A stretch of DNA of 64,000 nucleotides from Silanimonas sp. (GTDB lineage Bacteria; Pseudomonadota; Gammaproteobacteria; Xanthomonadales; Xanthomonadaceae). The stretch is taken from contig NZ_JAPZSC010000016.1 of the NCBI RefSeq assembly GCF_027531545.1, positions 248,001 to 312,000 on the forward strand. The letters run 5' to 3'. The notes beneath the pieces were generated by a model. It made no database searches, had not been told where the DNA came from, and saw only the letters and a list, made by a program, of their open reading frames with translations. Positions 6,411 through 22,103 of this stretch are shown here, in pieces; within the stretch, counting starts at the first letter, position 1; the number at the start of each line of letters is the position of its first letter. The position numbers and the translations under genes are program-made.

Positions 6411-6430
6411 CCTAAGAAGAACTACATAGG
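6411..6430 (+). promoter_or_regulatory. Ribosomal-protein leader motif, rplU copy
   Basis: AAGAACTACA at 6417-6426 ends 13 bases before the rplU ATG and recurs before rpsP and rplS. Here CCTA (6411-6414) and TAGG (6427-6430) can pair, which would present the motif in a 12-base loop with the Shine-Dalgarno-like AGG in the stem. Function unknown. Confidence 0.55.
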
Positions 6431-6439
6431 AATCGCAAC

Positions 6440-6751
6440 ATGTACGCAGTCGTCGTCACTGGCGGTAAGCAGTACCGCGTGATGAAGGGCGAAACCCTCC
6501 GCGTCGAGCTGATCGACGCCGAGCCGGGCGCCAACATCGAAATCAACGACGTCCTCCTGGTCGGCGATGGTGAGAAGATCACCGTCGGTGCCCCGAAGGT
6601 CGCGGGCGCCAAGGTCACCGCGACCGTCAAGGGTCACGGCCGCCTGGAGAAGGTCCGCATCGTCAAGTTCCGCCGCCGCAAGCACCATCGCAAGCAGATG
6701 GGCCACCGGCAGCACTTCACCGAACTCGAGATCACCGGCATTTCGGCCTGA
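6440..6751 (+). CDS. rplU: 50S ribosomal protein L21
   Basis: 103 residues, full length. It has the L21 N-terminus [14 protein letters not shown] and the basic rRNA-binding stretch [16 protein letters not shown] at about residues 74-89. L21 binds 23S rRNA in the large subunit. It is first in the conserved rplU-rpmA pair, with rpmA starting 27 bases later. The ~100-base leader carries the AAGAACTACA motif shared with rpsP and rplS, which suggests coordinated control. Confidence 0.98.
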
Positions 6752-6777
6752 TCCGTCCGTCTTAAGGAGAACACGTC

Positions 6778-7038
6778 ATGGCAAGTAAAAAGGGCGTTGG
6801 CTCGACCCGTAACGGCCGCGATTCCAACCCGAAGTACCTCGGTGTGAAGATCTTCGGTGGCCAGGCCGTCGAAGCCGGCAACATCATCGTCCGCCAGCGC
6901 GGCACCGAGTTCCATCCGGGGGCCGGCGTCGGCATCGGTCGCGACCACACGCTGTACGCGCTGGTCGACGGCAAGGTCGATTTCGCGGTGAAGGGCGCCA
7001 ACAAGCGCCGCACCGTGAGCGTGGTCGGCGCCGAGTAA
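6778..7038 (+). CDS. rpmA: 50S ribosomal protein L27
   Basis: 86 residues. It begins [17 protein letters not shown], the L27 N-terminal arm that reaches the peptidyl-transferase centre, followed by [13 protein letters not shown] and the GDHTLYA-like segment [11 protein letters not shown]. There is no N-terminal cleavage extension of the Firmicutes type. A strong Shine-Dalgarno (AAGGAG) precedes the ATG. It is cotranscribed with rplU and followed by a strong hairpin at 7097. Confidence 0.98.
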
Positions 7039-7096
7039 TCGGCCCGCGACGCGGTCCCGGCCTGCCGGAGTCGCCGCTCGCAACGCAAGGCAATAC

Positions 7097-7129
7097 ACGA
7101 CGCTCCGCCACGGCGGGGCGTCGTCGTTT
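7097..7129 (+). terminator. Rho-independent terminator after rpmA
   Basis: A 12-bp stem (7097-7108 with 7113-7124, one G-T wobble) closed by a CACG loop, followed by TCGTTT. It lies between rpmA and obgE, so read-through or a separate promoter must supply obgE mRNA. Confidence 0.6.
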
Positions 7130-7179
7130 CTGGCGGCGCCGCCTCCCCGGGGCCGGCCGCCGTCCACTTGGAGTTCCCC

Positions 7180-8271
7180 ATGAAATTCGTCGACGAAGCC
7201 GAGATCGCCGTCCACGCCGGTAACGGTGGCAATGGCTGCATCAGTTTCCGCCGCGAGAAGTTCATCCCGCTCGGTGGCCCCGACGGCGGTGACGGCGGCA
7301 ATGGCGGCAGCGTCTGGCTCGTCGCCGACGAGAACCTCAACACCCTGATCGACTTCCGCCACCAGCGCGTCTACCGCGCGCAGCGTGGGCAGAACGGCAT
7401 GGGTCGCGACATGTACGGCAAGGCCGGCGAGGACGTCATCATCCGCGTGCCGGTCGGTACGGCCGTCTGCAACGTCGCCACCGACGAGATCATCGGCGAC
7501 CTCACCGAGCACGGCCAGCGCCTGCTGGTCGCCAAGGGCGGCGACGGCGGCAAGGGCAACATCCACTTCAAGACTTCGGTGAACCGCGCGCCGCGCAAGG
7601 CGACGCCGGGTTGGCCGGGCGAGGAGCGCGAGCTGCGCCTCGAGCTGAAGCTGCTCGCCGACGTCGGCCTGCTCGGCTTCCCCAACGCCGGCAAGAGCAC
7701 CTTCATCCGCGCCGTCTCGGCGGCGACGCCGAAGGTGGCGGACTACCCGTTCACCACGCTATACCCGAACCTTGGCGTGGTCAGCGTCGAAGCCTTCAAG
7801 AGCTTCGTGATCGCTGACATCCCCGGCCTCATCGAAGGGGCGGCGGATGGCGCCGGCCTCGGCGCGCTGTTCCTGCGCCACGTGCAGCGCACCCGCCTGC
7901 TGTTGCACCTGGTGGACATGGCGCCGATGGACGAGGGCGTCGACCCCGTTGAGCAGGTGCAGGCGATCGAGAACGAACTGCGCAAGTACGACCCGGCGAT
8001 GCTCGAGAAGCCGCGCTGGCTGGTGCTCAACAAGGCCGATCTGCTGGACGAGGAAGAGACCGTGGAGCGCGTCGCCGACGTCGTCCAGCGACTCGACTGG
8101 AAGGGCCCGCACTTCGTCGTTTCGGCCATCAGTCGCGAAGGCACGCGCCCGATCATGCTCAAGGTCCAGCAGTTCTTCGACGACCTGAAGCACCAGGCGG
8201 CGGAAGCGGCCGAGGACGCGGCTTGGGTGGAGCGGAATGCGCCGAAGCCGCCGACCGGCGAGGGCGCCTGA
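7180..8271 (+). CDS. obgE: Obg family GTPase (ribosome assembly)
   Basis: 363 residues. The N-terminal Gly-rich Obg fold (about residues 1-158, with [10 protein letters not shown] and GGDGGKGN) is followed by a GTPase domain: G1 GFPNAGKST at about 166, G3 DIPGLIEGA at about 213 and G4 NKADL at about 284. Obg proteins bind the 50S subunit and link ribosome assembly to guanine nucleotide levels. The C-terminus is short and acidic to Pro-rich. The start is the ATG of MKFVDEAEI, preceded by TTGGAG; a GTG-type start 12 bases upstream is less likely. It follows rplU-rpmA as in most bacteria. Confidence 0.97.
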
Positions 8272-8301
8272 CGGCGCCCGTTTCTGCCAGCGAAGGACAA
8301 C

Positions 8302-8329
8302 AAAAAAGCCGGCGCAATGCCGGCTTTTT
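8302..8329. terminator. Bidirectional terminator between obgE and rpsT
   Basis: GCCGGC (8308-8313), loop GCAAT, GCCGGC (8319-8324), flanked by six A on the left and five T on the right, so it can stop transcription from both converging genes. Confidence 0.85.
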
Positions 8330-8373
8330 CGTGTTCCATGGCCCTTGCGGGCCAAGGAAGGCTGCGCCCGGAA

Positions 8374-20394: not shown

Positions 20395-20403
20395 TTCCAA
20401 TTC

Positions 20404-20445
20404 CCTGCCCCTGAAAGGGCAGGTATGACCCCAAGAACTACAGAG
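20404..20445 (+). promoter_or_regulatory. rpsP leader: hairpin plus ribosomal-protein leader motif
   Basis: CCTGCCC (20404-20410) and GGGCAGG (20417-20423) form a perfect 7-bp stem with loop CTGAAA. AAGAACTACA follows at 20433-20442 and ends 12 bases before the rpsP ATG, as in the rplU and rplS leaders. Confidence 0.55.
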
Positions 20446-20454
20446 CAAACAGCA

Positions 20455-20703
20455 ATGGTCAAGATCCGCCTGGCTCGCGGTGGCGCCAAGAAGGCCCCCT
20501 TCTACCACGTCGTCGTCACGGACGGCCGCAACGCCCGCGATGGCCGCAACATCGAGCGCGTCGGTTACTACAACCCGGTCGCCCGTGGCGCCGAGAAGCG
20601 CGTCGAGATCGACTCCGATCGCGTGAAGCATTGGGTGTCGCACGGCGCGCAGATGACCGACAAGGTCGCGCTGCTGGTCAAGGAAGCGGCCAAGGCCGCC
20701 TGA
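20455..20703 (+). CDS. rpsP: 30S ribosomal protein S16
   Basis: 82 residues. It begins [21 protein letters not shown], the S16 signature, with [13 protein letters not shown] at about residues 29-41. The ATG at 20455 is the start; an in-frame ATG 30 bases upstream lies inside the shared leader motif region and would add ten residues not found in S16. It is the first gene of rpsP-rimM-trmD-rplS. Confidence 0.98.
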
Positions 20704-20746
20704 TCCCGTTGCGCCACGGCCCGCCCGCTGGCGCACGAGACCTGCA

Positions 20747-21253
20747 ATGAGCACCGAGCGCCGCATCCTGTTGGGCAGGGTGATCGGCGCGTTCGGCGTT
20801 CGGGGTGAGCTGAAGCTCGAGTCCTGGACGAATCCCCGCGACGCGCTGTTCCGCTACAAGCCCTGGATCCTCGTCCATCGTGGCGAGGAAAGCCTCGTGT
20901 CCGGGGCGAAGGGCAAGCTGAACCCGAACGGTTCGATCACCGCCCGCCTCCCCGACGTGGAAACCCGCGACGACGCCGAGGCCATCGTCGGTGCCGAGAT
21001 CTGGGTGCTGCGCTCGCAGCTGCCGCCCTCGAAACCCGGCGAGTACTACTGGGTTGACCTCGAAGGCCTCAAGGTCGCGACCATCGACGGCGTCGAGCTC
21101 GGCACGATCTCGCATCTGTTCAACAACGGCGCCAACGACGTGATCGCCATCAAGGGCGAGCGCGAGCGCTATCTGCCCTACACCCCGGACGTCGTGCGCG
21201 AGGTCGACCTCGACGGCGGCCGCATGCTCGTCGACTGGGATCCCGAGTTCTGA
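20747..21253 (+). CDS. rimM: Ribosome maturation factor RimM
   Basis: 168 residues. The N-terminal segment [18 protein letters not shown] and the PRC-barrel part [13 protein letters not shown] are diagnostic. RimM binds S19 and helps mature the 30S head. It is second in the rpsP operon, 43 bases after rpsP and 11 before trmD. Confidence 0.97.
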
Positions 21254-21264
21254 TCGGCGCGCCC

Positions 21265-22017
21265 ATGCGCATCGACGTCCTCACGCTGTTTCCGGATTTC
21301 ATCGCCCAAGCGGCTGGTGTCGGCGTGGTCGGTCGCGCCGCCGAGCGTGGGCTGATCGCGGTGAAGGGTTGGAACCCGCGCGATTACGCCACCGGCAATT
21401 ACCGGCGCGTCGACGAGCGTCCGTTCGGCGGCGGCCCGGGCATGCTGATGCTGCCGGAGCCGCTCGAAACCTGTCTGGCCGCAGCACGTGCCGACGGTGC
21501 ATCGGGACCGGTCATCTACCTCTCGCCGCAAGGGCCGCGATTCACGCAGGCCAAGGCCCGCGCACTTTCGGCCACGCCCGGATTCCTCCTGCTTTGCGGC
21601 CGCTACGAGGGCGTCGACGAACGTTTCCTCGACGCGCATGTCGATGAAGAGCTGTCGATCGGCGATTACGTGTTGTCCGGCGGTGAACTGGGCGCGGCGG
21701 TGGTCATCGATGCCGTGGGCCGCCTGCTCGCCGGAGCACTGAACGACGCGGCGTCGGCGGTGCAGGACAGTTTCGAGGACGGCCTGCTCGACTGCCCGCA
21801 CTACACCCGTTCGGAGTCGATGGGGACCGACGGGGTGCCGGAGGTGCTCCTTTCCGGCGACCACGCGAAGATCGCCCGGTGGCGGCGTCAGCAGTCGTTG
21901 GGCCGGACCTGGCTCCGCCGCCCGGACCTCCTGGCCCGGATGGACCTGAGCCGCCAGGACCGGGCCCTGCTCGCCGAATTCATCGCCCGTCAAGTTTCGA
22001 GCCCCGACAGCCCCTAG
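21265..22017 (+). CDS. trmD: tRNA (guanine-N1-)-methyltransferase TrmD
   Basis: 250 residues. It shows the trefoil-knot SPOUT motifs [29 protein letters not shown] and [14 protein letters not shown] (about residues 88-155). It methylates G37 of tRNAs with G at position 36. It is third in the rpsP operon. A separate promoter for rplS lies in the 94-base gap that follows. Confidence 0.98.
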
Positions 22018-22044
22018 CGCCGGCTGTCAAGACGGGGGTATACT
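22015..22044 (+). promoter_or_regulatory. rplS promoter
   Basis: TAGCGC (22015-22020), an 18-base spacer and -10 TATACT (22039-22044), then TTCCGACTCGCCC. This would let rplS be made independently of rpsP-rimM-trmD. Confidence 0.55.
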
Positions 22045-22082
22045 TTCCGACTCGCCCGGGCTACGTGCCTGCGTGGCGCGGC

Positions 22083-22103
22083 ATCTAGAAGAACTACACA
22101 GGT
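22083..22103 (+). promoter_or_regulatory. Ribosomal-protein leader motif, rplS copy
   Basis: AAGAACTACA at 22089-22098 ends 13 bases before the rplS ATG. ATCT (22083-22086) can pair with AGGT (22100-22103), placing the motif in the loop, as in the rplU leader. Confidence 0.55.

Follow-up and report, generated by a model that had tools for sequence, protein, structure and literature searches.

What could account for the same ten bases standing shortly upstream of three different ribosomal protein genes? The question arises from a 64,000-nucleotide stretch of Silanimonas sp. DNA (contig NZ_JAPZSC010000016.1, positions 248,001 to 312,000; hereafter the window), in which an earlier sequence-only reading had placed the string AAGAACTACA in front of rplU, rpsP and rplS. 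The search of the window bears this placement out: there are three exact matches, all on the + strand, separated by 13, 12 and 13 bases from the start codons of rplU (ATG at 6440), rpsP (20455) and rplS (22112), and each is followed by NAG, where N is T, G and C, respectively. One hundred shuffled versions of the window contained a mean of 0.01 matches. Taken with the comparisons below, these copies strongly support a conserved cis-element that a small number of ribosomal protein genes have in common. The closest named relative, according to the L19 protein of the window, is a Silanimonas metagenome-assembled genome (98% identity). The genes and their elements are as follows.

6417..6426, + strand, element AAGAACTACA, then TAGG, before rplU; exact match, kept in the family
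6440..6751, + strand, rplU, ribosomal protein L21 (Pfam PF00829)
20433..20442, + strand, element AAGAACTACA, then GAGC, before rpsP; exact match, also present upstream of rpsP in other genera
20455..20703, + strand, rpsP, ribosomal protein S16 (Pfam PF00886)
22089..22098, + strand, element AAGAACTACA, then CAGG, before rplS; exact match, also present in the genus, in two other named lineages and in genus g46
22112..22489, + strand, rplS, ribosomal protein L19 (Pfam PF01245)

Is the element kept where these genes occur in relatives? The sequence-only reading had made its case depend on this, and the element is indeed present upstream of the same genes in the genus of the window. Upstream of rplU, it was found in four genomes of the genus and in G135; before rpsP, the genus has the form AAGAAC[T/G]ACAGAGC; before rplS, AAGAACTACACAGG is present in three of the four named loci (L038, L039 and L041) and in G112, and the leader of the fourth locus (L040) carries a degenerate form. 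For the family as a whole, 99 Xanthomonadaceae genomes (G000–G098) were searched, of which 96 yielded an rplU match and 90 provided leaders for comparison. ANAACNAC was matched in the last 60 bases of all 90 leaders, AACTACA was kept in 84, the other six showing one-base differences within AACTACA, and the exact 12-mer AANAACTACAGA was present in 73. Column counts were made on 86 rows, since the row pattern dropped four rows in which the first A is G; this pattern makes seven of the twelve element columns invariant by construction, and the remaining, free columns have T in 70 rows and G in 16 (third), T in 83 (seventh), A in 84 (tenth), G in 76 (eleventh) and A in all 86 (twelfth). Across relatives, the element reads AA[U/G]AACUACAGA. 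In the alignment of the 86 rows, the information content of columns -20 to -3 is 0.06–0.51 bit, and that of the Shine-Dalgarno columns 3' of the element is 1.0–1.5 bit. In three genomes of genus g32 (L022, L023 and L024; also L265), the rplU leader carries the element almost twice in a row, AAAACTACAGAAGAACTACAGAAAGG, the first copy in L023 having a base changed, AAAATTACAGA; G072, of the same genus, has a single copy.

The distribution of the element over other genes was assessed with patterns of different strictness. Exact AANAACTACAGA, searched on both strands, occurs at 89 places in the 99 family genomes, 79 of them at rplU (by coordinates), five at rpsP (G000, G086, G011, G022 and G067, with G022 and G086 assigned by identical strings only), one at rplS (G046, locus L406) and four elsewhere, two of these within longer frames and two upstream of other genes. 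The pattern AACTACAGAG-N4-16-ATG, applied to 149 family genomes, gave 122 distinct sites versus 18 hits of the reversed pattern in our own tally; the sites comprise 94 at rplU, 13 at rpsP, two at rpsE, two at rplL and 11 others, all of which were opened. As to the 94 rplU assignments, 62 (in G000–G098) agree with coordinates; of the remaining 32, 11 were checked and the rest were made by elimination. The rpsE sites belong to G057 and G116. The two genomes with rplL sites, G079 and G130, are members of genus g46, in which a further genome (G106) has the element upstream of rplS. The identity of S5, L7/L12 and L19 was confirmed by Pfam at one locus each, and rpsE sits in a ribosomal protein cluster at its element-bearing locus; both rpsE and rplL usually sit in the interior of operons.

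With seven exact copies of AAGAACTACA in 3.82 Mb, the motif is not frequent in the genome of the window (G000), and the second outcome that the sequence-only reading had named as refuting did not arise either. In this genome, AACTACANAG without mismatches was found at four places, three of which are the rplU, rpsP and rplS leaders. The relaxed pattern AGAACNACNNA-N5-20-ATG also gave four places there, the three leaders and lexA, versus two for its reverse; outside the leaders, this pattern is mostly background. The lexA copy, AGAACCACACAAATTTGTGGC, was set aside as part of a palindrome; this palindrome, CCACACAAATTTGTGG, stands directly before the lexA ATG (L392, contig C55) and is possibly lexA's own operator. 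The 16-kb ribosomal protein region of contig C72 contained no extra copy within one mismatch of the relaxed form before frames of 60 residues.

Outside the family, among the rplU leaders fetched from the order, the element was found in both from family f115 (one with C for T), in all three from f124 (two with G for T) and in one of two from f114, and in none of 13 from families f116, f117 and f119–f123. In the class, AACTACA is present in one of 49 leaders (L238) and a looser form in one more (L209). The start-site pattern, AACTACAGAG-N4-16-ATG, gave 41 places in 114 class genomes (three of them in the family) versus 49 for its reverse in our own tally, which is the background level, and none of the 12 class sites opened had a ribosomal protein start. 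The element is real, specific and old within the order.

Could the element be a Shine-Dalgarno sequence or a part of a promoter? The fixed spacing proposed earlier holds in the genome of the window, where it is 12–13 bases, and does not hold across relatives, where the end of the element lies 8–26 bases from the ATG. This variable distance does not fit a Shine-Dalgarno sequence, and neither do the predicted duplexes with 16S rRNA, which are no better than those of shuffled sequences. The Shine-Dalgarno sequence of the rplU leaders may overlap the element or sit downstream of it; in L258, L260, L282, L285, L287, L288, L295 and L301 it appears by eye to be shifted downstream with the element left in place, and the leader comparison shows the two to be separable. 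The Shine-Dalgarno sequence of rpsP in the window is weak. In the 67 rplU rows with a recognisable -10, the element lies 37–97 bases after it and starts 21–38 bases before the ATG, the former distance being 37–42 bases in 51 rows; 23 rows, those of the window genus among them, were dropped from these measurements. Many Xanthomonadaceae have a strongly conserved block, TTCCGCTTCTGTCCGCC, directly 3' of the -10 of their rplU leaders, and base pairing would be possible between TTCTGT and the ACAGAA of the element. In other Gammaproteobacteria, the post--10 position of rplU leaders is often occupied by GCTCTTT, which we take to be boxA-like. The corresponding features of the three leaders in the window, together with a predicted hairpin, are listed below.

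6329..6334, + strand, -10-like hexamer CATACT in the rplU leader, picked by eye
20389..20394, + strand, -10-like hexamer TAGACT in the rpsP leader, picked by eye
20404..20423, + strand, predicted GC-rich hairpin, 5' of the element in the rpsP leader
22039..22044, + strand, -10-like hexamer TATACT in the rplS leader, picked by eye

The sequence-only reading had further proposed a shared binding site for a regulator, ribosomal protein S1 or another RNA, which flanking bases would present in a hairpin loop at rplU and rplS. A shared, conserved site is supported; the hairpin is not. The CCUA/UAGG stem of rplU has a predicted energy of -1.1 kcal/mol, folds no more stably than shuffled sequences do (z -0.56) and is not conserved in L120 and L121, which come from two further members of the genus. 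The predicted folds leave the element mostly unpaired, with unpaired fractions of 0.78 (rplU), 0.87 (rpsP) and 0.76 (rplS) versus leader means of 0.42, 0.61 and 0.46, and with 0.76 versus 0.43 upstream over 89 of the 90 family rplU leaders. A flanking stem, GACCA/TGGTC, is the best stem in 33 of the 90 leaders and is absent in several lineages; its score with cognate flanks is 11.0 versus 10.36 with swapped flanks (standard deviation 0.31, maximum 11.1, i.e., above the cognate value). Flanking stems are clade-specific at best, being frequent in one clade and not general. The whole rpsP leader of the window folds no better than shuffles (z -0.04).

Other conserved structures were seen in leaders of the same genes. 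Upstream of rplS, Lysobacter (e.g., L083) and Xanthomonas (e.g., L048) have conserved GC-rich blocks with possible hairpins, GACGCGGGTCCACGTGCACTCGCG and GCAATCGCCGTGCGGCGACTGC, which are candidate ribosomal protein leaders. In the rpsP leaders of Xanthomonas, Stenotrophomonas and Lysobacter, a CGCCATCCTGGCGACTGGGCAACACAGGAAA-like stretch is highly conserved, with a hairpin and then an A-rich stretch at the place where the element would be.

Which known system might read such a site? Rfam searches of the window gave 13 hits, all of them tRNA or signal recognition particle (SRP) RNA and none a ribosomal protein leader; at eight loci searched with a permissive threshold, rsmX, istR and RsmY appeared below the gathering score, again with no ribosomal protein leader. 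Mimicry of rRNA or pairing with it was rejected. In predicted pairing with the 16S rRNA of three family genomes and with the tRNAs and SRP RNA of the window, no shuffle fraction was below 0.08 among the best five duplexes per query. An RNA of the NusA/boxC type was considered, the NusA boxC sequence, like the cspA cold box, being presumably similar to the element, and was rejected: the 5' leaders of four rrn operons from three family genomes contained no sense-strand match with three or fewer mismatches. The rrn of the window's own genome was not found. The best rrn match has two mismatches and lies on the sense strand about 400 bases after 16S in two of the four operons; the two strings, on the rRNA strand, are AATGTCTACAGA (L373 2895) and AAGGTCTACAGA (L374 2961). 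The site of CsrA/RsmA is ANGGA at the Shine-Dalgarno sequence; this candidate was also rejected, as rpsP in the window has no adjacent GGA, rplU has TAGGA and rplS has AGGT. AAGGA is present in the leaders of some relatives.

Starting from the sequence, position, conservation, gene specificity and separability from the Shine-Dalgarno sequence that the leader comparisons establish, we suggest that AA[U/G]AACUACAGA is an mRNA element that is linear and for the most part single-stranded, placed where the ribosome lands on a small set of ribosomal protein transcripts in Xanthomonadaceae and certain related families. The set comprises rplU in nearly every case, rpsP and rplS in the window genus and some others, and rpsE and rplL in a few genomes. 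Because the element also precedes rpsE and rplL, which usually are internal operon genes, it would act in the mRNA, at translation initiation. A sequence-specific trans-acting factor, more likely a protein than a small RNA, would bind it and, by either hindering or promoting the attachment of the 30S subunit, set the rate of initiation at all these genes together. That the element is a linear translational control site, probably bound by such a factor, is given about an even chance here.

Several observations weigh against this reading. AAGAACTACA occurs seven times in the 3.82-Mb genome versus eight times for the reversed 10-mer, which means that the total is not raised, and AACTACANAG with up to one mismatch occurs at 85 places versus 181 for its reverse (30 of the 85 were opened for inspection and 55 were not). 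The reversed AANAACTACAGA 12-mer has 78 hits in 149 genomes in our own tally. The rpsE and rplL occurrences are limited to two genomes each, and in other genera the element is missing from the majority of rpsP and rplS leaders: among 80 named loci, AACTACA precedes rpsP in six and rplS in five, and a looser form precedes them in six and eight more, respectively. In one of the six rpsP cases, Stenotrophomonas panacihumi (L059), the string is GGAACTACAGAAA and lies 3' of the Shine-Dalgarno sequence. A scan of the ribosomal protein regions of ten genomes with up to one mismatch, which the rpsE form of the element escapes, returned only rplL (G079) and tuf (G073). The Shine-Dalgarno sequence that often follows the element could also account for part of the conservation. 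What is unusual about AAGAACTACA is the position of its three copies, not their total number, and the case for AANAACTACAGA likewise rests on location and not on totals. The string upstream of tuf, the EF-Tu gene, is AAGAACCAGAGAGGAATC (L445 7908), with one mismatch to the relaxed form.

The genome total of AAGAACTACA is what chance has in its favour, together with the weakness of a 10-mer taken alone as evidence. The four other copies of AAGAACTACA lie within coding frames and are translated as Lys-Asn-Tyr. The earlier claim that the recurrence could hardly be accidental is not borne out by the genome total but is borne out by position, since dozens of genera keep the element at the same genes and its counts fall to background level in the class; chance is practically negligible as an explanation. 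A signal at the DNA level, an operator or promoter part, would agree with the frequent 37–42-base distance from the -10 at rplU, yet that distance reaches 97 bases, the site is non-palindromic and, wherever it was found at a gene, is on the coding strand, and it also precedes the normally operon-internal rpsE and rplL, which makes this explanation very improbable. A conserved small RNA could target the element, which has its shortness, its unpaired state and its closeness to the start codon in common with many small RNA targets; however, the near absence of the 12-mer elsewhere on both strands makes a conserved, fully complementary RNA unlikely, and we consider this explanation quite improbable.

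The element might have been the autogenous operator of L21 originally, acquired later by other ribosomal protein mRNAs, and rplU is in fact where it occurs most consistently and where it was found in neighbouring families (in which rpsP and rplS were viewed at named loci only). The element is not confined to one operon, however, and simple autogenous control is disfavoured because five different ribosomal protein genes (rplU, rpsP, rplS, rpsE and rplL) carry it; moreover, a 2024 review (PMC10931766) states that E. coli rplU-rpmA shows no response when its products are more abundant, and an L21 origin seems unlikely. More serious, though still on the unlikely side, is an intrinsic translation enhancer, in which the 30S subunit itself, through S1 or another ribosomal protein, would contact the A-rich stretch and initiate strongly without a dedicated regulator. 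The element is A-rich and unpaired, lies beside or over the Shine-Dalgarno sequence at genes expected to be highly expressed, accompanies a weak Shine-Dalgarno sequence at rpsP of the window and has a similar string at tuf of G073. An enhancer would nevertheless be expected at many highly expressed genes, whereas nearly all exact copies upstream of start codons belong to rplU, rpsP or rplS; CUACAG is conserved beyond what an A-rich enhancer seems to need, and the 16S rRNA pairing offers no support. A specific factor is favoured over a general enhancer because the conservation is sequence-specific and the gene set is small.

If one factor reads the element, it would provide a simple, portable coordination of ribosomal protein translation in a large bacterial family, and the element would be a defined bait for finding that factor. 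The question addressed is how bacteria balance ribosomal proteins whose operons show no autogenous control. The element is relevant to it through the genes that carry it: rplU, whose operon in E. coli is unresponsive to its products, and rpsP and rplS of the trmD operon, for which the 2024 review states that information on regulation is lacking (PMC10931766). Literature searches at the level of titles and abstract openings found no description of the element. An S16 leader is listed in Flavobacteria in PMC7247131, in the main text of which the term xanthomonad does not occur.

Autogenous ribosomal protein leaders are structured, as a rule serve one operon and have its own product as the ligand. 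The element resembles the bacterial leaders of this kind, such as the autogenous operators of L19, L21 and S16, in being a cis-element in the mRNA directly before ribosomal protein genes, but differs from them in being linear, common to several genes and without a match to any ribosomal protein leader in Rfam. The A-rich operators of Hfq/Crc are likewise unpaired and near the Shine-Dalgarno sequence; an Hfq operator, however, consists of uninterrupted A-R-N triplets, and Hfq was rejected as a partner since the repeat of the element is broken by U at the first base of the third triplet in 83 of 86 leaders. The eukaryotic 5' terminal oligopyrimidine (TOP) sequence offers an analogy only: it is also a short linear sequence on many ribosomal protein mRNAs and serves their joint translational control, but it is pyrimidine-rich and stands at the cap, whereas the element is A-rich, near the start codon and present at few genes. 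By this analogy, the element may possibly be, and we propose it tentatively, a bacterial counterpart of TOP in its logic, in which a dedicated factor would tune the translation of unlinked ribosomal protein genes together and cover operons without known autogenous control.

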